Below are positions 4,071 through 13,234 of a stretch of DNA of 13,234 bases, one piece after another (the stretch's first letter is position 1; the number at the start of each line of letters is the position of its first letter). The notes under the pieces are model-generated. The model did no database searches and was not told where the DNA came from. It saw only the letters and a program-made list of their open reading frames with translations. Origin of the DNA: Firmicutes bacterium UBA6132 (GTDB taxonomy: Bacteria > Bacillota_A > Clostridia > Tissierellales > Sedimentibacteraceae); the NCBI GenBank assembly GCA_002435835.1, contig DIVM01000063.1, forward strand, positions 1-13,234, in the 5' to 3' direction. A program made the translations under genes and the position numbers.

Positions 4071-5381
4071 ATGCTAAAAATATCTATTATAAGCCCTAAA
4101 ATTTCAATGTCTATTATTGATAAAATACTTAAAAAAAACGAATATTATTGTGAATTTTATACATATATTTACGAAAATTTAATTGATGTATTAGATATAT
4201 ATAATGAGTGTCATGATAAAGTGGATGGTATATTCTTTAGTGGAGAACGTGGATATATTTATCTAAACCAACAAATTGTAGACTTATCTATTCCTTGTAA
4301 ATTTATTTTCTATGACACAATACATGTCATGTCACTTTTATTAAATTTATCACTTGATAACCCAGGTCTACAATTAAATAGAGTATATACTGATTTTTTG
4401 GGGCCTTTTAATAATTACTATGGAGTTAAAAATTATATAAAAGAAGAGCACTTACCATTTTTTAATGAAACAAACTCTATTAATTATGAGGAGATGTTAA
4501 ATACAGCTCTAGAACTTTGGAATAATAATAAAATAGATTTAATGTTAACTAGATCAACTACCAACCTTAAAAAAATTGAGGAATCTAAGATACCATTTAT
4601 ACACATACTTCCTGATGAAGATATTATTGCAAATGCTATAGAAAAGGCAATAGATGAAATAAAGCTGGAGAGAGCTAAAAATTCATTTAAAGTAATTTGC
4701 TTTGTTAAACCATACTACAATTATGAACCAGATTTAAACGAAAGAGAATATGTTGAGATATCAATGCATAAGCAACTTATAGATATAAAGAAGGAACTGA
4801 ATAATAATATTAATATTTCACTTTTGTCTGGTAGATTCGAATTATTATTTTATGAAGAAGAAAAAGAACCTAATTTAAGAAAAATAAGATTTATAATTGA
4901 AGCTCTATCTAAAAATAAAGAAATTAAATTTAACATAGGAGCTGGTGTAAGCTCTGATTTTGATAATAGCAGATACTTAGCTGAAAAAGCATTGAAGGAA
5001 TCTATTAGGTACGGATTTAATGATGGATTTGCGATTTTAGATGATGAGAAGACAATAGGACCCCTTTCTCAAGTAAATACTCTAACTTATAACATCAATA
5101 ATCCAAATGTCGATTCATTTGCTAAAGATAATAATATCGATATTGGGAATATGTACAGGATTATGGGAATTTATAACGCAAATAATTATGAGGTCTTAAA
5201 TTCAGAGATTTTATCAAGGTGGCTTAATATCACTCAGAGAAGTTGTAATCGAATAATAATACAGCTATTAAAACATAATTTAATTGAAGAAATCAAATTG
5301 GAAGAAAATAAAGGAAAGGGAAGGCCTACAAAGTATTATAAATTTGTGGCTGAAAATATGGAAAAATTTAATTTATTATAA
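4071..5381 (+). CDS. Winged-helix regulator with degenerate GGDEF-like domain
   Basis: This 436-aa soluble protein lacks a signal peptide and membrane segments. Residues 1-195 form an alpha/beta sensor-like region (DGIFFSGERG at 52-61, then KIDLMLTRSTTNLKKIEESKIPFIHI) recalling the N-terminal effector regions of PrpR-type regulators. Residues about 205-335 look like a degenerate GGDEF/nucleotide-cyclase fold: KFNIGAGVSSDFDNSRYLAEKALKESIRYG, then FAIL and the tail TIGPL. No catalytic GGDEF signature is present, so it is probably a sensor and not an enzyme. Residues about 370-428 are a winged helix (LNSEILSRWLNITQRSCNRIIIQLLKHNLIEE), with a wing at KGKGRPTKYY. The start is ATG 4071, with AGAGGAG about ten bases upstream. 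It is divergent from the symporter-amidohydrolase operon, so it likely controls that operon and itself. Domain naming rests on pattern memory, not on a search. Confidence 0.7.
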   Translation: MLKISIISPKISMSIIDKILKKNEYYCEFYTYIYENLIDVLDIYNECHDKVDGIFFSGERGYIYLNQQIVDLSIPCKFIFYDTIHVMSLLLNLSLDNPGLQLNRVYTDFLGPFNNYYGVKNYIKEEHLPFFNETNSINYEEMLNTALELWNNNKIDLMLTRSTTNLKKIEESKIPFIHILPDEDIIANAIEKAIDEIKLERAKNSFKVICFVKPYYNYEPDLNEREYVEISMHKQLIDIKKELNNNINISLLSGRFELLFYEEEKEPNLRKIRFIIEALSKNKEIKFNIGAGVSSDFDNSRYLAEKALKESIRYGFNDGFAILDDEKTIGPLSQVNTLTYNINNPNVDSFAKDNNIDIGNMYRIMGIYNANNYEVLNSEILSRWLNITQRSCNRIIIQLLKHNLIEEIKLEENKGKGRPTKYYKFVAENMEKFNLL

Positions 5382-5636: not shown

Positions 5637-6269
5637 CTACATAAATTCTTTTTTTCTGTATTTGATTCCTAATAATTCTTCGTAAACGCAAATCATAGCG
5701 CCTTTGTATTCTTCACCATAGCCTTTATTAAGTGCCATTTTATAAATTGAATTAGTTGCATCTAATACTGGTATTGGAATTGCTCTTTGTTGTGCTATTT
5801 CAACTGCACTTACTATATCTTTATAAGCAGCATTCATAGTGAAGCCGTATGAGAAATCGCCCTCTAACATTTTAGGAATGAAGAACTCTGATGCGTTGCT
5901 TCTTGCAGTTCCACTGTTTACTACTTTACCAATTTGTTCTGGTTCTAATCCTAATTTTACAGCCATAGGTAATAATTCTGCAATAGCTGATATGTTAACA
6001 TCATAGATACAGTTGTTTATCATTTTTGTTAATTGACCATTACCGTTTTTACCCATGTATACTACATTATTACCCATAAAATCTAAAAGAGGTTTAATTT
6101 TATTGAATACTTCTTCGTTACCGCCAACCATAATAGCTAAAGTGCCATCATCTGCTTTAGATTGTCTTCCCGAAATAGGAGCATCCATATAATATACATC
6201 TTTTGCTTCTACTTTCTCTGCTATCTTTAATGTTGCAAGATAATTTAAAGTACTGCAGTCAACTATAAT
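5637..6269 (-). pseudogene. 3-hydroxyisobutyrate dehydrogenase family, C-terminal fragment
   Basis: The reading frame is open from 6269 down to the TAG at 5637 and encodes the latter two thirds of a beta-hydroxyacid dehydrogenase (3-hydroxyisobutyrate / tartronate semialdehyde reductase family). Recognisable parts are VDCSTLNYLATLKIAEKV, the substrate-binding motif DAPISGRQSKADDGTLAIMVGG, and YMGKNGNGQLTKMINN, which carries the catalytic lysine and the Asn pair. About 90 residues are missing at the N-terminus, including the GxGxxG Rossmann fold that binds NAD(P); a stop (6270-6272) lies immediately upstream of the frame. An internal ATG at 6188 exists but would give a 183-aa protein with no cofactor site. 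The missing half is not elsewhere in the window. This is most likely a 5'-deleted relic, perhaps of the operon upstream or of a rearrangement involving the adjacent inverted-repeat element. Confidence 0.8.
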
Positions 6270-7067: not shown

Positions 7068-8072
7068 TTATAACTCAAAACCTTCAGGATAAGGATCAGA
7101 AGGATCAATCATAAAGGTACTCATGCCAGTTATATAAGCTTGCCCAGAAATTTCTGGTATAATAGCTGTTATACCTTCTATTGTAGTTTCCTCAAGAATA
7201 CGGCAATGGAAGAGGCTACCTATTATGCTTTCATGTATAAATGGTTCTCCGATACCAAGCTCACCTTTTGAGTAAAGGAGTGCCATCTTTGCAGATGTGC
7301 CTGTACCACACGGGGATCTGTCTATGGCAGCACCGGTAACTAAGACAGCATTACGAGCTGAGACACCTGGCGTACCTGAAGGTGCAAAAAATTCAACATG
7401 AGTGACTTTATCAACGAAAGAAAGAAATGGATGTTGAATAGTAATCTGCTCATTTATGCATTTTCTTAGCAACACACCAATAGCTATTATTTCTTTTGAA
7501 TTTTCTGGGATAAGCTCTAAACCCATAGACTCAGCCGATAGTATAGCATACATATTTCCTCCATATGCGACGTCAAATTTCACTTCACCAAATTCAGGAA
7601 GATTTACGGTATAATCTCTACCAATAACAAATGCAGGAGCATTCACTAATGTAACCTTTTTTGCACATCCGTTTTCAACTTCAACACTCACCTTAACAAC
7701 ACCGCTTGGGGTATCTAAAACTATATTAGTAATAGGTTCGGTTACTTCTACCATACCAGTCTCCACAAGAGCAGTTGCAACACCAATTGTATCGTGTCCA
7801 CACATAGGAAGCCAACCACCTGTCTCAAAGTAGATTACACCTATATCTGCTCCAGGAGTACAAGGTGGAGTAAGAAAAGCTCCTGACATTACATCATTTC
7901 CTCGTGGCTCTAAACTTAGTACTTTGCGCATCCAATCATTTTGGTTTTGCATGTATACAAATTTTTCCTGCATATTATTACCTAAAATTACTGGAACACC
8001 GCCTACCACAGTGCGAGTAGGTTCTCCGCCAGTATGTGTATCAATAGTTTGAAAAGTTCTCCTAATTTTCAT
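7068..8072 (-). CDS. Proline racemase / hydroxyproline 2-epimerase family
   Basis: This 334-aa cytoplasmic enzyme belongs to the proline racemase superfamily, which inverts the alpha carbon of proline or 4-hydroxyproline without a cofactor, using two cysteines as acid and base. Both are present: C91 in PMCGHDTIG and C255 in DRSPCGTGTSAK. Having two cysteines argues against the trans-3-hydroxyproline dehydratase branch, where one is replaced by Thr. The N-terminal IDTHTGGEPTR and C-terminal PEISGQAYITGMSTFMIDP also fit, and the length is normal. Proline versus 4-hydroxyproline specificity cannot be decided by eye. The start is ATG 8072, since an in-frame stop lies four codons upstream. The strong AGGAGGTGG (8098-8106) is too far away for direct use (see findings). 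It follows dctM by 59 bp in one operon, so the TRAP system likely imports its substrate. D-proline produced this way could feed Stickland-type proline reduction, though no reductase is in the window. Confidence 0.88.
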   Translation of the reverse strand: MKIRRTFQTIDTHTGGEPTRTVVGGVPVILGNNMQEKFVYMQNQNDWMRKVLSLEPRGNDVMSGAFLTPPCTPGADIGVIYFETGGWLPMCGHDTIGVATALVETGMVEVTEPITNIVLDTPSGVVKVSVEVENGCAKKVTLVNAPAFVIGRDYTVNLPEFGEVKFDVAYGGNMYAILSAESMGLELIPENSKEIIAIGVLLRKCINEQITIQHPFLSFVDKVTHVEFFAPSGTPGVSARNAVLVTGAAIDRSPCGTGTSAKMALLYSKGELGIGEPFIHESIIGSLFHCRILEETTIEGITAIIPEISGQAYITGMSTFMIDPSDPYPEGFEL

Positions 8073-8131: not shown

Positions 8132-9409
8132 CTAAATACCCATGATTAAACTTGGTATATTTGTTATAAATGGTATGTAGGTTATAAGTACTAAGGCTAG
8201 CAATACAGCAAAAACAAATGGCATCGCACTTTTAACTGTTTCGCCAAAATTACATCTAGCAATATTAGTGGCAGAATAGAGACAAACACCAACTGGTGGA
8301 GTTGAAAGGCCAATAGTAAGATTAATACAAACAATCATTCCAACATGAATTGGATCCATGCCAAGACTTACCATAGCAGGAGAAAGTATTGGAGCTATTA
8401 GCATTATAGCTGGTGCACTATCCATAAACATTCCTACAATTAATAATGCAAAATTAATAAAAAGTAACTTAATGCTTAAAGGGTAAGGCATTGCAACTAA
8501 TGCTTCTGTTAACTTTGTGGTAATTTGTTCATTAGAAATAACCCAACCAAATAAATAGCAAGCACCAACAATTAGCATGACTGAACCACTATCAATTGCA
8601 CTATTAACTATAGATCGCCACAGACCTTTCCATGTAATACTTCTATAAAAAAATGCAGAGAGTAATACTGAATAAAGAACAGCAGCAGCTGCTGCTTCTG
8701 TTGGTGTAAGCCAACCTAAAATAATACCTCCTATAACAACAAGTGGCAAACCCAGACAAGGTATGGCAGAAAGTGTGGCTTCAAGCTTTTCTTTAACTGA
8801 AGCCTTTGGCTGTTTAGGATAATTACGTTTAGTAGCATAAACAAAAGCAACTAACATCATTAGTGCCCCCATAATAATACCTGGCACAATGCCTGCTATA
8901 AACATGTCTTTTACTGAGACCTTAGCCGAAGAAGCATAAATAACAAAAGCTAGGCTGGGCGGTATGACAGGGCAACAGGTAGAAGCAACAGCTGTAAGGC
9001 CAGCAGTGAATGGAGCATCATATCCCTCTTCTTTCATGGAAGGAATGAGTAAAGAGCCAACTGCAGCTGTACCAGCAACTGCTGAACCAGAAATTGTACC
9101 AAACATCATGCACACCATTATATCCACAAGTGCTAAACCACCGCGAATATGCCCAATAAAGGCCTGAGCAAAACGGACTAACCTTTGGGTTATCCCCCCC
9201 TGATTCATAATGTTGCCTGCTAACACAAAGAAAGGTAAACATAACAAAGTAAAACTATTTATACCATAGATAACACGTTGTGGCACTAAAAACCAGGATA
9301 TCTCCCCTATTGCAAAAGCATAAGTAATCGTAGAAAGAATCAATACAAACCCAATAGGGATTCCAATAGATAGAAAAACAAAGAATGAAACAAATAGCAA
9401 CCAAATCAT
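8132..9409 (-). CDS. dctM: TRAP transporter large permease, DctM
   Basis: This is the large membrane subunit of a tripartite ATP-independent periplasmic-type (TRAP) transporter, the ion-driven translocation channel. It is a 425-aa, highly hydrophobic protein with roughly 12 membrane segments. The family hallmark GTISGSAVAGTAAVGSLLIPSMKEEGYDAPFTAGLTAVAS is followed by PVIPPSLAFVIYA. The later half shows MDSAPAIMLIAPIL and NLTIGLSTPPVGVCLY, both typical. The start is ATG 9409, six bases after GGAGGT; an in-frame upstream ATG (9433) falls inside dctQ and is unlikely. The start overlaps the dctQ stop as ATGA, so the two subunits are translationally coupled. It works with DctQ and the DctP lipoprotein encoded upstream. 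Confidence 0.93.
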   Translation of the reverse strand: MIWLLFVSFFVFLSIGIPIGFVLILSTITYAFAIGEISWFLVPQRVIYGINSFTLLCLPFFVLAGNIMNQGGITQRLVRFAQAFIGHIRGGLALVDIMVCMMFGTISGSAVAGTAAVGSLLIPSMKEEGYDAPFTAGLTAVASTCCPVIPPSLAFVIYASSAKVSVKDMFIAGIVPGIIMGALMMLVAFVYATKRNYPKQPKASVKEKLEATLSAIPCLGLPLVVIGGIILGWLTPTEAAAAAVLYSVLLSAFFYRSITWKGLWRSIVNSAIDSGSVMLIVGACYLFGWVISNEQITTKLTEALVAMPYPLSIKLLFINFALLIVGMFMDSAPAIMLIAPILSPAMVSLGMDPIHVGMIVCINLTIGLSTPPVGVCLYSATNIARCNFGETVKSAMPFVFAVLLALVLITYIPFITNIPSLIMGI

Positions 9410-9951
9410 TCTACCACCTCCGAAACAGTACAATCATTTACATCCTCTGGAAGAGGCACACGTACTGGTTTTCCATAATATATAATTTCAAGCAATTGAA
9501 CAGTAGAATGATAAATCATCACTATACCGCAAATAGGCAAAGACATATAAAACCAAGCAATAGAAAAATTGAAAGAAACACCCAAATGTGTTATATTTGA
9601 AATTGTATATAGGGTACTTGCTACAGTAAAAACCATTAAAGTAATGATCATAATAACATGAGAAACAATTAGCATTATCTTTCTCAGTATACCATGAAAA
9701 GAGTTTATTAAAATATCAACACCAATGTGCAACATATAACGGCTAGCAACAGCACTGCCCAATAATGTCTGCCACACAAAAAGTAAACAAGAAATCTCAG
9801 AAGCCCATTTAAAGGATATGTTAATTTGACGCAGAAGCATTTGACCTATAACAATAACAGATAAAATAATTGTATTTATACCAAGTAGGATGCGGGAAAT
9901 ATTGTTAATACGTTCTCCTATTTGTTGAATTGTTGGTAAAAAATTTTTCAA
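9406..9951 (-). CDS. dctQ: TRAP transporter small permease, DctQ
   Basis: This small membrane subunit of the TRAP transporter has 181 aa and four hydrophobic segments (about 20-40, 55-75, 92-115 and 132-152). The family pattern FKWASEISCLLFVWQTLLGSAVASRYMLHIGVDIL spans segment 2 and the amphipathic helix after it. The start codon is TTG 9951, supported by GAGGAGG eight bases upstream; no in-frame ATG gives a complete first helix. It ends in the ATGA overlap with dctM. The short charged C-terminal tail is cytoplasmic by prediction. It is separated from dctP by 80 bp holding a strong hairpin. Confidence 0.9.
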   Translation of the reverse strand: MKNFLPTIQQIGERINNISRILLGINTIILSVIVIGQMLLRQINISFKWASEISCLLFVWQTLLGSAVASRYMLHIGVDILINSFHGILRKIMLIVSHVIMIITLMVFTVASTLYTISNITHLGVSFNFSIAWFYMSLPICGIVMIYHSTVQLLEIIYYGKPVRVPLPEDVNDCTVSEVVE

Positions 9952-10031: not shown

Positions 10032-11045
10032 CTATCTTACTTCATCCACCATTTTAACTAATTCTTTCCATTCAGGATGATTTTTAAATTGTTCGTCATA
10101 AACTGGTTTAACAGCAGCTTTCCATGCTTCGATATCTGATGGATAAGTAATATTATAGCCCTTAGATTTATATTTTTCGATAAGTTTATCATCCTCATCT
10201 AAAAATTTGCTACTTGCAAAGGCTCCTGCCTTCTCAGCACATGTTTTTACTATTTCTTGATCTTCTTTTGTAAGTTCATTAAACCATTTTTCATTGGCCA
10301 ACACTATACCACCTGAGTAGAAGTGATGAATAATGCAAGCAGAGTCAACTACATCAATATAACCTTCTGACTCTGCATAAACTAAACTGTTATCTTGAGC
10401 TTCAACAACATTTGTTTGTAAACTAGTATAAATCTCACCAGATGGTATAGCTATTGGAATCGCACCTAAAGCAGTATACATACCAGTGCTAATATTGTTC
10501 ATCATACTTCTGATTCGAAGATCTTTCATATCTTCTACAGAATTAATAACTTTACCATTAGTTAAAATATTTCTCCATCCATCTATATGAAAACCAAGAC
10601 CAATTACTCCGTCGACTTTATTAACGTCTTCAAGTATTGCTTTTCCAAATTCTCCTTTAAATGCCTTTTGCATATGATCATTATCATCAAACAAAAAAGG
10701 CATTCCTATAAGCTCCATATTAGGGGCAAAACCGCCTATGCTACCCGTTCCTACCCAAGCAATTTCGATATTACCAGATTGAGCCATCTCGAAAGCTTCA
10801 ATCTCGTCAGTAGTCATATCTCCTGCATGTACAACAACTTTAATACGGCCGTTACTAGATTCTTCAACTAATTTTTTAAACTCTTGTGCTCCCCAATCAT
10901 AGGGCGAACCTTGACTAGTTACATGAGCTACACGGATTTTAATTTCTTTCTCATTACTACTAGAGGTTTTTGAGGTATTACCACAACCACTTAATAATAA
11001 TGTTGATAAAGCAATAACTAATACCATTAACATACTTTTTTTCAT
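10032..11045 (-). CDS. dctP: TRAP transporter substrate-binding lipoprotein, DctP family
   Basis: This extracellular solute receptor of the TRAP system (337 aa) has a lipoprotein signal peptide, MKKSMLMVLVIALSTLLLSG, followed by C21, so it is anchored to the outer face of the membrane in a Gram-positive cell. A Ser/Thr/Asn linker follows, then the DctP fold. IRVAHVTSQGSPYDWGAQEFKKLVEE is the typical first strand and helix. The conserved ligand-contact region DLRIRSM (175-181) holds the likely carboxylate-binding Arg179, and IPSGEIYTSLQTNVVEAQDN matches the family's hinge and Asn motif. The presence of this Arg implies a substrate with a carboxylate. The start is ATG 11045, with AAGGAG six to seven bases upstream. 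It is the first gene of the operon and lies about 190 nt after a predicted sigma-54 start site. Together with the racemase, proline, hydroxyproline or a derivative is a reasonable but unproven cargo. Confidence 0.93.
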   Translation of the reverse strand: MKKSMLMVLVIALSTLLLSGCGNTSKTSSSNEKEIKIRVAHVTSQGSPYDWGAQEFKKLVEESSNGRIKVVVHAGDMTTDEIEAFEMAQSGNIEIAWVGTGSIGGFAPNMELIGMPFLFDDNDHMQKAFKGEFGKAILEDVNKVDGVIGLGFHIDGWRNILTNGKVINSVEDMKDLRIRSMMNNISTGMYTALGAIPIAIPSGEIYTSLQTNVVEAQDNSLVYAESEGYIDVVDSACIIHHFYSGGIVLANEKWFNELTKEDQEIVKTCAEKAGAFASSKFLDEDDKLIEKYKSKGYNITYPSDIEAWKAAVKPVYDEQFKNHPEWKELVKMVDEVR

Positions 11046-11246
11046 TTTTTTCTCCTTTTTAATTTTGGTAGTGTCAATAAAACACTCCTTTTATTTTATT
11101 TAAAATATCTATTTTCAAATGGTTACAAAGTTTTTTTATAAATAAAAAACAATGACCATCTTTTTTCTATTCTAATTGAAGTTCCCATAATGAATAAGGA
11201 AGCACATGGGGAAATTTAAGTTTATCACTAACCTAAAAATATATAA

Positions 11247-11261
11247 GCAATATTAGTGCCA
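11247..11261 (-). promoter_or_regulatory. Sigma-54 (-24/-12) promoter
   Basis: The minus strand reads TGGCAC-TAATA-TTGC: the conserved GG (11260-11259) and GC (11248-11247) are separated by exactly ten bases, as sigma-54 requires. The match to TGGCAC-N5-TTGC is complete. Transcription would start near 11235 and run into dctP. Flanking genes encode sigma-54 activators, which strongly supports the call. Confidence 0.85.
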
Positions 11262-11317
11262 ATTTTCTTTTAATATTTATGTTTAAAATTCAATGCCTTT
11301 TAGTAAAAAAAAAATAA

Positions 11318-11333
11318 GTACCAAATTTCATAC
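11318..11333 (-). promoter_or_regulatory. Proximal enhancer-like palindrome (UAS 1)
   Basis: GTACCAAATTTCATAC is a 16-bp imperfect palindrome (12 of 16 positions symmetric). It is centred about 90 bp upstream of the predicted sigma-54 start site, the usual place for an upstream activating sequence. It matches the second copy at 14 of 16 positions. Confidence 0.7.
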
Positions 11334-11359
11334 TTTTTTAAACAAATAATTAATACTAT

Positions 11360-11375
11360 GTACGAAATTTGATAC
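11360..11375 (-). promoter_or_regulatory. Distal enhancer-like palindrome (UAS 2)
   Basis: GTACGAAATTTGATAC is the second copy of the palindrome, centred 42 bp (four helical turns) from the first and about 132 bp upstream of the predicted start site. It lies only 15 bp beyond the stop codon of the nearer activator gene. The spacing on one DNA face suits cooperative binding of an activator oligomer. Confidence 0.7.
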
Positions 11376-11389
11376 TAATTAAAATTTAG

Positions 11390-12793
11390 TTAATATATTT
11401 GCAATTTATTTAATTTATTATGTAAAGTTTGTTTAGGTATTTTCAATAATTTTGCTGCTTCTGTTTTATTGTTATTGCATATTTTTAAAGCCTTAGTTAT
11501 TATTTCTTTTTCATATCTCTGCAATTTATTGTTTAGAGAATCAACAAAGTTATTTTGGTTTTTAGTAAATAAATTATCAGAATTCTGATTTTTAGTTTCA
11601 CATAATTTATGTCTTACATCTTCTATATTTATTTCTTTTTCTTCCTTAAAATTCATAATACTTTCAATTGTATGTTTTAGTTCTCTTACATTACCAGTCC
11701 AATCATAATCAGTTAAAACCTTTAATGCATCCTTTGTTATTCCTTCTATTTCTTTATCTAGTAATATGTTAAATATATTAATGTAATAGTTTACAAATAA
11801 TTCAATATCTTCCTTTCTATCTCTCAATGGCGGTATTTTCAACTCCGAAGAATTAAGTCTATAATATAGATCCTCTCTAAACTTTCCATTAGATATTGCC
11901 TTTAAAGGCTCTTCATTCATAGAAGCAATAATTCTAACATCAACATCTATAAATTTAGTATCTCCAATGCGCATTATTCTTTTGTCTTGTATAACTCTTA
12001 ATAATTTAACTTGTAATCCCATCGGCAAGGAATTAATCTCATCTAAATACAATACTCCATTATTAGCTATTTCAAATAATCCCATTTTGTCTTCAGCACC
12101 AGTAAAACTTCCTTTAACCGAACCAAATAAAATGCTTTCCATCAAATTTTCAGGAAATGCTGCACAGTTTTGTGAGACAAATGGAAATTTATTTCTGTTG
12201 CTCATGTTATGTAAGGCTTGAACAAACAATTCTTTTCCAACTCCAGTTTCACCGAACACCAAAACAGAAGAATCCAAATTTTTAATTAAACTTAAAGTTT
12301 CTTTTACTTTTTTTATTTCTTTACTATTACCTATTATAGACTCACATTTATAAATTGTGTTGTTTTTCAATACATTGGGTATATTATCGTATTGTTTTAT
12401 ATTGTTTATATGTATACTACATAATTTTTTAGATAAAATATCCATTTTAGTGATATCCTTATATATTTCCATTGAAGCAATGACTTTATCTTCTGCATAA
12501 ATAGGATAACAGGAAATAAGCAATGAGCTTTTACTTCCGCATTCATTACTTATATTTTGGTAATAGTCAATAATTGAAGGTGATCCGTTCAATACTTTAA
12601 GCATAAGGCTATTATTATTATTTAATTCGGGGAAAATTTGATGAAATTTTTTATTTTTTATTTCTTCAGGATTTAAGCCATTTAACGATTTAGCCTTTTG
12701 ATTAAATAGTGTTATGTCATATTTGCTATCTAAAACAACTATACCCTCATCAATCATTTCTATTAAATCCTTTAAAGGTATTTTTTTATACAT
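11390..12793 (-). CDS. Sigma-54 enhancer-binding activator, PAS-AAA+-Fis HTH
   Basis: This transcription activator for sigma-54 RNA polymerase has 467 aa. A PAS sensor domain spans about 10-115 (IDEGIVVLDSKYDITLFNQKA, ending in EIYKDITK). An AAA+ domain spans about 153-380 with Walker A GETGVGKE (181-188), the sigma-54 contact loop GSFTGA (228-233), Walker B GVLYLDE (246-252), the arginine-finger region FREDLYYRL (305-313) and DWTGNVRELKHTIE. A Fis-type helix-turn-helix lies at about 438-464 (NKTEAAKLLKIPKQTLHNKL). The overall plan resembles RocR-type amino-acid regulators. The contact loop has Ser in place of the usual Ala (GAFTGA). The start is ATG 12793, five bases after AAGGAG. It is 9 bp downstream of a second activator gene and just upstream of the dctP control region, so it is the prime candidate to bind the two palindromes. 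The PAS ligand is unknown. Confidence 0.92.
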   Translation of the reverse strand: MYKKIPLKDLIEMIDEGIVVLDSKYDITLFNQKAKSLNGLNPEEIKNKKFHQIFPELNNNNSLMLKVLNGSPSIIDYYQNISNECGSKSSLLISCYPIYAEDKVIASMEIYKDITKMDILSKKLCSIHINNIKQYDNIPNVLKNNTIYKCESIIGNSKEIKKVKETLSLIKNLDSSVLVFGETGVGKELFVQALHNMSNRNKFPFVSQNCAAFPENLMESILFGSVKGSFTGAEDKMGLFEIANNGVLYLDEINSLPMGLQVKLLRVIQDKRIMRIGDTKFIDVDVRIIASMNEEPLKAISNGKFREDLYYRLNSSELKIPPLRDRKEDIELFVNYYINIFNILLDKEIEGITKDALKVLTDYDWTGNVRELKHTIESIMNFKEEKEINIEDVRHKLCETKNQNSDNLFTKNQNNFVDSLNNKLQRYEKEIITKALKICNNNKTEAAKLLKIPKQTLHNKLNKLQIY

Positions 12794-12802
12794 AATTACT
12801 CC

Positions 12803-13234
12803 TTAATTAAAATCTATTACCCAATTAATATTATACTTTTTAATTTTAGAAAATAATGTTTGTTTTGGAATATTTAACAATTGTGCTGCCTTAGTAATAT
12901 TACCACCCGTTTTAATTAAATTATCTTCAATTAGCTTTATCTCATATGTATCCATATTATCTTTTAAAGACCTTGTAAAATAATTTTCTGTTAATTTACT
13001 TTTACAATTTGAATTGGACATAAATTTATTTATATATGTATCTGACAAGCGCTCAGTATTTATTTCTTTCTCATTTCTTATAGTACCCACAGTATTCTCT
13101 ACTAAATTCTGCAGTTCTCTTACATTTCCTGGCCATTTGTATTTGAGGAGCTTTTCTATTCCGTCTTGATTAATTTTCAGTCCCTGTTTATCGTATTTAT
13201 TCGCGTATTTAATCAGAAAAAACTCAGCTAATAG
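12803..13234 (-). CDS. Second sigma-54 activator, partial at window edge
   Basis: The frame is open from the window end (codon CTA at 13234) to the TAA at 12803, giving the last 143 residues of a protein that begins outside. LLAEFFLIKYANKYDKQ and LLKYKWPGNVRELQNLVENTVGTI are the lid end of a sigma-54 AAA+ domain, with the conserved GNVRELxN. A linker and a Fis-type helix-turn-helix follow (GGNITKAAQLLNIPKQTLFSKIKKY). An ATG at 13090 lies within the domain and is not the real start. The recognition region IPKQTL is identical to that of the downstream activator, so the two proteins probably recognise the same DNA sites and may be paralogues. The stop lies 9 bp before the next start, and the next gene's ribosome site begins at this gene's stop codon, so they are co-transcribed. 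Its sensor domain cannot be seen. Confidence 0.88.
   Translation of the reverse strand, partial: LLAEFFLIKYANKYDKQGLKINQDGIEKLLKYKWPGNVRELQNLVENTVGTIRNEKEINTERLSDTYINKFMSNSNCKSKLTENYFTRSLKDNMDTYEIKLIEDNLIKTGGNITKAAQLLNIPKQTLFSKIKKYNINWVIDFN

Follow-up and report, generated by a model that had tools for sequence, protein, structure and literature searches.

The window, i.e., the whole 13.2-kb stretch of DNA analyzed here (13,234 nucleotides of contig DIVM01000063.1 from Firmicutes bacterium UBA6132), contains two tandem bEBP genes followed by a proposed target operon. An intergenic region of 344 bp with a G+C content of 21% separates the stop of the complete bEBP gene (11390) from the start of dctP (11045) on the minus strand. 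The features, in the direction of minus-strand transcription, are as follows:

12803-13234, minus strand: second bEBP, truncated at the edge of the window, with just the C-terminal part present; HTH IPKQTLFSK
11390-12793, minus strand: bEBP, the proposed activator; PAS, AAA+ sigma-54 interaction domain and Fis-type HTH (IPKQTLHNK)
11317-11376, minus strand: terminator-like hairpin; 17-bp stem formed from both predicted operators, 26-nt loop, then a T-run
11375-11360, minus strand: predicted distal operator, GTATCAAATTTCGTAC; centre at about -133; top score with the matrix of relatives' sites
11333-11318, minus strand: predicted proximal operator, GTATGAAATTTGGTAC; centre at about -91; ties with the distal operator for the top score with that matrix
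11305-11314, minus strand: T10 run in the direction of activator transcription, behind the proximal site
11262-11246, minus strand: sigma-54 (-24/-12) promoter, TTGGCACTAATATTGCT; strict consensus; in the same position in some relatives
10032-11045, minus strand: dctP, encoding the solute-binding protein of a TRAP transporter; the proposed target operon begins with this gene
9406-9951, minus strand: dctQ
8132-9433, minus strand: dctM
7068-8072, minus strand: proline racemase / 4-hydroxyproline epimerase family protein (Pfam; under the cut-off of each NCBIfam equivalog matched)

The proposed activator has the domains of a bEBP (PF00158, 1.2e-61; PF02954, 1.6e-09). A gap of 9 bp separates the end of the second bEBP gene from the start of the activator gene, and the two genes are probably co-transcribed; the tandem activators differ in the recognition helix. 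The closest orthologues of the activator (P0002-P0008, compared as proteins only) are 65-73% identical to it, and one of them is named Tissierellia. In a tree of 68 rows (49 of the 120 listed proteins and 19 loci), the window's activator grouped with these proteins, which have N in place of H at the variable helix position. Sequences with Q at this position lay on one side of a branch with support of 100/99, and the QTLHNK rows and the window's clade lay on the other.

Two other genes of the window are recorded here. The ORF at 5637-6188 resembles an NAD-binding dehydrogenase without its N-terminal part, covering about the last 60% of the family profiles (from position ∼115 of ∼295). The 436-aa protein encoded at 4071-5381, next to a Glt_symporter-like gene, had no Pfam match at 0.001 and shows weak C-terminal similarity to Lrs14-type regulators.

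The sigma-54 promoter and the paired near-palindromes

The promoter TTGGCACTAATATTGCT follows the consensus TTGGCAC/T-N5-TTGCA/T with the exact GG-N10-GC spacing. The pattern TTGGCAY-N5-TTGCW matched once across both strands of the window, at this site, and none of 20,000 dinucleotide shuffles of the 344-bp intergenic sequence, scored on the same strand, produced a strict promoter. A sigma-54 element with strict spacing, as given in the preliminary description of this DNA, was thereby confirmed. Transcription would be expected to start near 11235, which gives a leader of ∼190 nt before dctP. An inverted repeat, TTCCCAT...ATGGGGA, is located in this leader at 11182-11212; a comparison of the window with Rfam, this repeat included, gave no match at the gathering score.

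In minus-strand order, the elements of the intergenic region are GTATCAAATTTCGTAC, GTATGAAATTTGGTAC, TTATTTTTTTTTT (11317-11305) and TTGGCACTAATATTGCT. The first two are identical at 14 of 16 positions, their starts are 42 bp apart, and within each copy six of the eight possible pairs are Watson-Crick pairs. Near-palindrome pairs agreeing at ≥ 14 of 16 positions were absent from 20,000 shuffles, those agreeing at ≥ 13 were found in 5, and those agreeing at ≥ 12 in 16. With zero mismatches, GTAYSAAATTTSRTAC occurs at just these two places in the window, and at two more with 2 or 3 mismatches. The two similar palindromes and their spacing of 42 bp had been reported in the preliminary description with centres near -90 and -132; both points hold, the centres being about -91 and -133 from the predicted start. 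The distances to the promoter are about 63 and 105 bp. A palindrome filter demanding more pairs missed the window's own sites, and the exact window variant was found as a pair in 1 of 398 genomes of the phylum, vs. 2 of 398 for the reversed control, which is the chance level.

Loci of related activators

Relatives were drawn from 299 genomes of the phylum, one order of 22 genomes and one class of 26 genomes. A scan of genome contigs with a single protein gave seven loci at 37-44% identity, and the same search of viral contigs gave none. Searches of the order and class genomes from several starting centres did not meet the clade of the window's close orthologues; more distant activators, 41-44% identical to the window's, had the same recognition helix, QTLHNK. 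As the comparison set we used the 12 genomes of the 26-genome class with an orthologue ≥ 59% identical to protein P0016. The relatives fall in two orders of one class, so the locus counts given below are not independent.

In 6 of these 12 loci (G275, G251, G150, G116, G227, and G342), a 16-bp GTC-N10-GAC site was present between the activator gene and the promoter, with a T-run behind it and, 21-34 bp upstream, a second copy that was poorer and partial. The frame of 16 bp and the sites of the relatives were chosen by eye, after the window had been viewed. The downstream sigma-54 promoters had no mismatches in two loci, one in one locus, and two in three. The distal copies were often poor palindromes, and a strict GT...AC filter retained a site in just two of the six loci (L011 and L017). 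The full layout was not found behind the activator gene in the other six loci (G382, G363, G408, G404, G177, and G080), and the layout is thus found in half rather than all of the orthologue loci of the class. The slot of G382 retains one site and a hairpin, and a paired site with a promoter is located ∼1.6 kb further on. The remaining five had no paired site before a promoter in the stretches scanned; in G404, a single strong hit of the matrix (15.1 bits) was not accompanied by a promoter, and G080 had a hairpin and T-run without the motif.

A matrix was constructed from the proximal sites of the six relatives, with the window sequence excluded. On the window, both palindromes scored 7.4 bits each, and the next best 16-mer scored -2.0; in 2000 shuffles, the best of the window's scores was reached in 0.45% and the second in none. 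The relatives' distal copies, which were outside the matrix, gave p values of 0.000, 0.027, 0.000, 0.002, 0.056, and 0.038 (combined, 3e-8, with 0/1000 counted as 0.001). Matrix hits of ≥ 9 bits are common, with 1 to 11 per stretch, and lone hits therefore mean little. A matrix-free search for upstream repeats of the hairpin core gave p values of 0.042, 0.113, 0.002, 0.003, 0.056, and 0.137 in the six relatives, of which three did not exceed 0.05. The value for the window was 0.000, and among nine loci from other activator groups none had a value of 0.05 or less. The window thus has what was taken to define a QTLHNK operator, a two-copy GT-N12-AC palindrome between the activator gene and the promoter. 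The preliminary description had not recognized the operator motif as that of a described regulator. Beside the relatives' GT-N12-AC sites, the motif appears to be one lineage's version of a more widespread motif rather than an isolated one.

The recognition helix bears on which of the tandem activators would use the sites. They might belong to the upstream bEBP at 12803-13234, or to both proteins, as neighbouring and probably co-transcribed genes would allow, but the QTLFSK helix of the upstream protein differs from the QTLHNK of the motif-bearing relatives, and we regard this assignment as highly improbable.

We also analyzed the sites away from the activator genes. Across 12 stretches, matrix hits were located no more than 400 bp from five promoters with ≤ 2 mismatches outside the activator slot; for two of these promoters, the hit was upstream. 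G382 has a pair of copies, spaced 22 bp, ahead of a sigma-54 promoter and the gene for a 778-aa protein, which had no NCBIfam match and is flanked by two Xaa-Pro peptidase-like genes (L120 8618-13667). The pair in G227, spaced 19 bp and with one copy that starts with GTATC like the window's, lies ahead of a promoter and the gene for trans-4-hydroxyproline dehydratase (HypD). The longest T-runs behind these pairs were 4 (G382) and 2 (G227), the run of 4 being uncommon in its slot (0.07). T-runs this short at the off-locus pairs suggest that the motif occurs as an operator whether or not termination is strong. The distance from the proximal centre to the promoter was 61-84 bp in the six relatives, 63 bp in the window, and 103 and 94 bp for the off-locus pairs. 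The spacings of the nine pairs (34, 21, 22, 23, 22, 22, 42, 22, and 19 bp) clustered in phase with the helical turn (Rayleigh test, p of about 0.005, from pairs that are not independent), with 34 and 19 off phase.

These observations agree with the preliminary proposal of a sigma-54 promoter with upstream activator sites, since the layout and a related motif recur in 6 of 12 relatives' loci and paired motifs precede two further promoters; its account of the A tract, discussed below, was incomplete. The genes beside the relatives' activators include HypD, which scored above the NCBIfam cut-off in two of two proteins tested (from L116 and L074), with similar ORFs of 810-813 aa in L115, L118, and L119, an activase-like protein (below its cut-off), and a sodium-dependent transporter. 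A racemase-family gene of the relatives is 54% identical to that of the window and exceeds the 4-hydroxyproline epimerase cut-off (386.8 vs. 376). By comparison with these genes, the operon of the window may have a role related to hydroxyproline or proline.

A hairpin and T-run behind the activator gene

An A10 tract between the promoter and the sites was noted in the preliminary description. It is present at 11305-11314, but it is better read in the direction of activator transcription, as the T-run of a putative intrinsic terminator formed by the same sites. Its orientation had been overlooked there, as had the mutual complementarity of the two copies. Because both are near-palindromes, the copies are complementary to each other, forming 14 Watson-Crick pairs and 2 G.U pairs without a mismatch; at the S positions, where each palindrome is imperfect, one copy is complementary to the other. 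The two-operator hairpin has a computed stability of about -18 kcal/mol (-17.9 to -18.4), and a hairpin at or below -12 kcal/mol was found in 0 of 400 shuffles of the slot. The fold of 11296-11390 had z = -3.6, whereas its halves alone were unremarkable (z = 0.3 for 11296-11345, and -0.7), and the fold of the proximal palindrome by itself reaches only -3 to -4 kcal/mol. A stable hairpin followed by a T-run behind a gene is the arrangement of an intrinsic terminator, and the slot looks like that of the activator gene. The loop of 26 nt and the low-G+C arms depart from the short loop and G+C-rich stem of such elements, and the slot was absent from the list of a simple terminator scan that considered loops of 3-8 only.

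Among 50 activator-gene rows, including the window, 18 had a sigma-54 promoter with ≤ 1 mismatch near the gene end. With the same script, a slot hairpin and T-run were detected in 12 of the 17 relatives among these; both were missing in L023, L025, L026, L029, and L037. The proximal site alone forms a hairpin in G251 (-15.4), G116 (-17.2), G227 (-13.2), and G342 (-9.9). The operators together form the stronger hairpin in the window (-18.4), G275 (-16.2), and G150 (-15.3), where the values for the proximal site alone are -3.0, -5.9, and -1.8, respectively. A T-run of 5-10 within 14 nt behind the proximal site was found in the window and all six motif-bearing relatives, a count that is biased upward, as is the Fisher p below, by the choice of the relatives' proximal sites partly for being slot hairpins. 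The slot-wise p values were 0.04 for the window and 0.04, 0.18, 0.08, 0.20, 0.11, and 0.08 for the relatives (Fisher, 0.002). The terminator role is less certain on account of this selection. In another activator group (L043, G046), a pair of TGCC...GGC palindromes, with a T-run behind each, lies between the activator gene and a sigma-54 promoter. This is possibly the same doubling of operator and terminator in a second group; the repeat test was not significant there.

The fold of the slot and its recurrence in 12 of 17 relatives make a serious rival of the explanation that the repeats serve only as the two arms of an intrinsic terminator for the activator gene, the real activator sites lying elsewhere. 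The arms do pair with each other better than each copy pairs with itself, and T10 follows directly downstream. However, the chance that an arm is itself such a palindrome is 2-4%, the relatives' matrix selects exactly these two sites, and a repeat of this kind is absent from the terminators of other activator groups (0/9). Paired motifs also stand upstream of two other sigma-54 promoters, where the T-runs are just 4 and 2. Given the layout in the relatives, the matrix scores, and the off-locus pairs, we dropped termination as the sole explanation and consider it quite unlikely.

Conversely, the palindromes could be activator sites only, the hairpin being a by-product and the T-run an incidental A tract. 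A palindrome present in two copies is automatically complementary, A/T runs are common in intergenic DNA with 21% G+C, and the single T-run p values are only 0.04-0.20, with a count inflated by the hairpin-based choice of proximal sites. Against this stand the T-run in the window and all six relatives, compared with runs of 4 and 2 at the off-locus operators, and the complementarity of both S positions between the window's copies. We consider this explanation unlikely, with somewhat more in its favor than the one that sees a terminator alone.

An operator pair that also terminates the activator transcript is the simplest account of all the features, and its terminator half is the weaker one. 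According to this account, the bEBP encoded at 11390-12793 would bind two helically phased 16-bp GT-N12-AC operators at about -91 and -133, assemble into an oligomer, and loop to the sigma-54 RNA polymerase at 11246-11262. The dctPQM genes and the racemase-like gene would then be switched on, probably by hydroxyproline, proline or a related ligand. When RNA polymerase reads through from the activator gene, the operators in the RNA would fold on each other and, with the T-run that follows, act as the intrinsic terminator of that gene. We assign a probability of about 0.62 to this explanation as a whole, a value set lower because the frame and the relatives' sites were picked by eye, and the proximal sites partly as hairpins. 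A broader proposal, to which we give slightly less than even odds on account of the same hairpin-based choice of proximal sites, is that in hydroxyproline/proline-linked bEBPs the activator's own enhancer sites form the terminator stem, in some species by operator-operator pairing. The bound activator could then be a roadblock for its own transcript or for transcription continuing into the target operon, coupling binding, termination, and activation.

Comparison with known systems

The best NCBIfam match of the window's activator is PrdR, the proline reductase activator, which is likewise connected with proline-related metabolism; the score was 398 bits vs. an equivalog cut-off of 795, so the protein is not PrdR. 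It shares its domain order with RocR-type bEBPs, and several homologues at 41-45% identity are labelled "arginine utilization regulatory protein"; the targets of the relatives studied here differ, being mainly hydroxyproline/proline genes and a transporter. Bacillus RocR has paired upstream sites. In the part of the text available, one study places activators of the RocR and PrdR types beside their promoters (PMC4428206). Hydroxyproline strongly induced hypD in two of three C. difficile strains, and the available part of that report does not name the regulator (PMC9044972). Among the matches listed in the open-licence literature, the titles and abstract beginnings included none on bEBP sites overlapping a terminator and named no sigma-54 activator of hypD.

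The present analysis predicts an operator for a group of bEBPs associated with trans-4-hydroxyproline dehydratase, the enzyme of an anaerobic pathway, and names candidate target genes of this group. If the dual reading is correct, one DNA element would serve as both enhancer and terminator, constraining the evolution of both, and such an element could deceive programs that search for motifs as well as those that search for terminators. Like intrinsic (Rho-independent) terminators, the window has a stem and then a T-run just behind a gene; unlike them, it has a low-G+C stem, a 26-nt loop, and arms that resemble protein-binding palindromes.

The closest comparison is with the clostridial bEBP regulons of Nie et al. 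(2019; PMC6615313), who described 39 groups. The words "terminator" and "palindrom" are absent from the main text of that paper, and its Table 1 gives no TRAP transporter or hydroxyproline dehydratase as a target. The sites described in the available text are mostly 100-250 bp from the promoter, compared with about 63 and 105 bp in the window. As far as that text extends, the regulators share with the window's activator the combination of PAS, AAA+, and Fis-type HTH, a location mostly beside the target operon, a sigma-54 promoter, and often multiple upstream sites. In the same text, 15 of the 39 groups have TGT-N10-12-ACA sites, which are close to the GT-N12-AC frame of the window: the GT-N12-AC core is present in both copies, and the sole match to the outer base is at one end of the distal copy.
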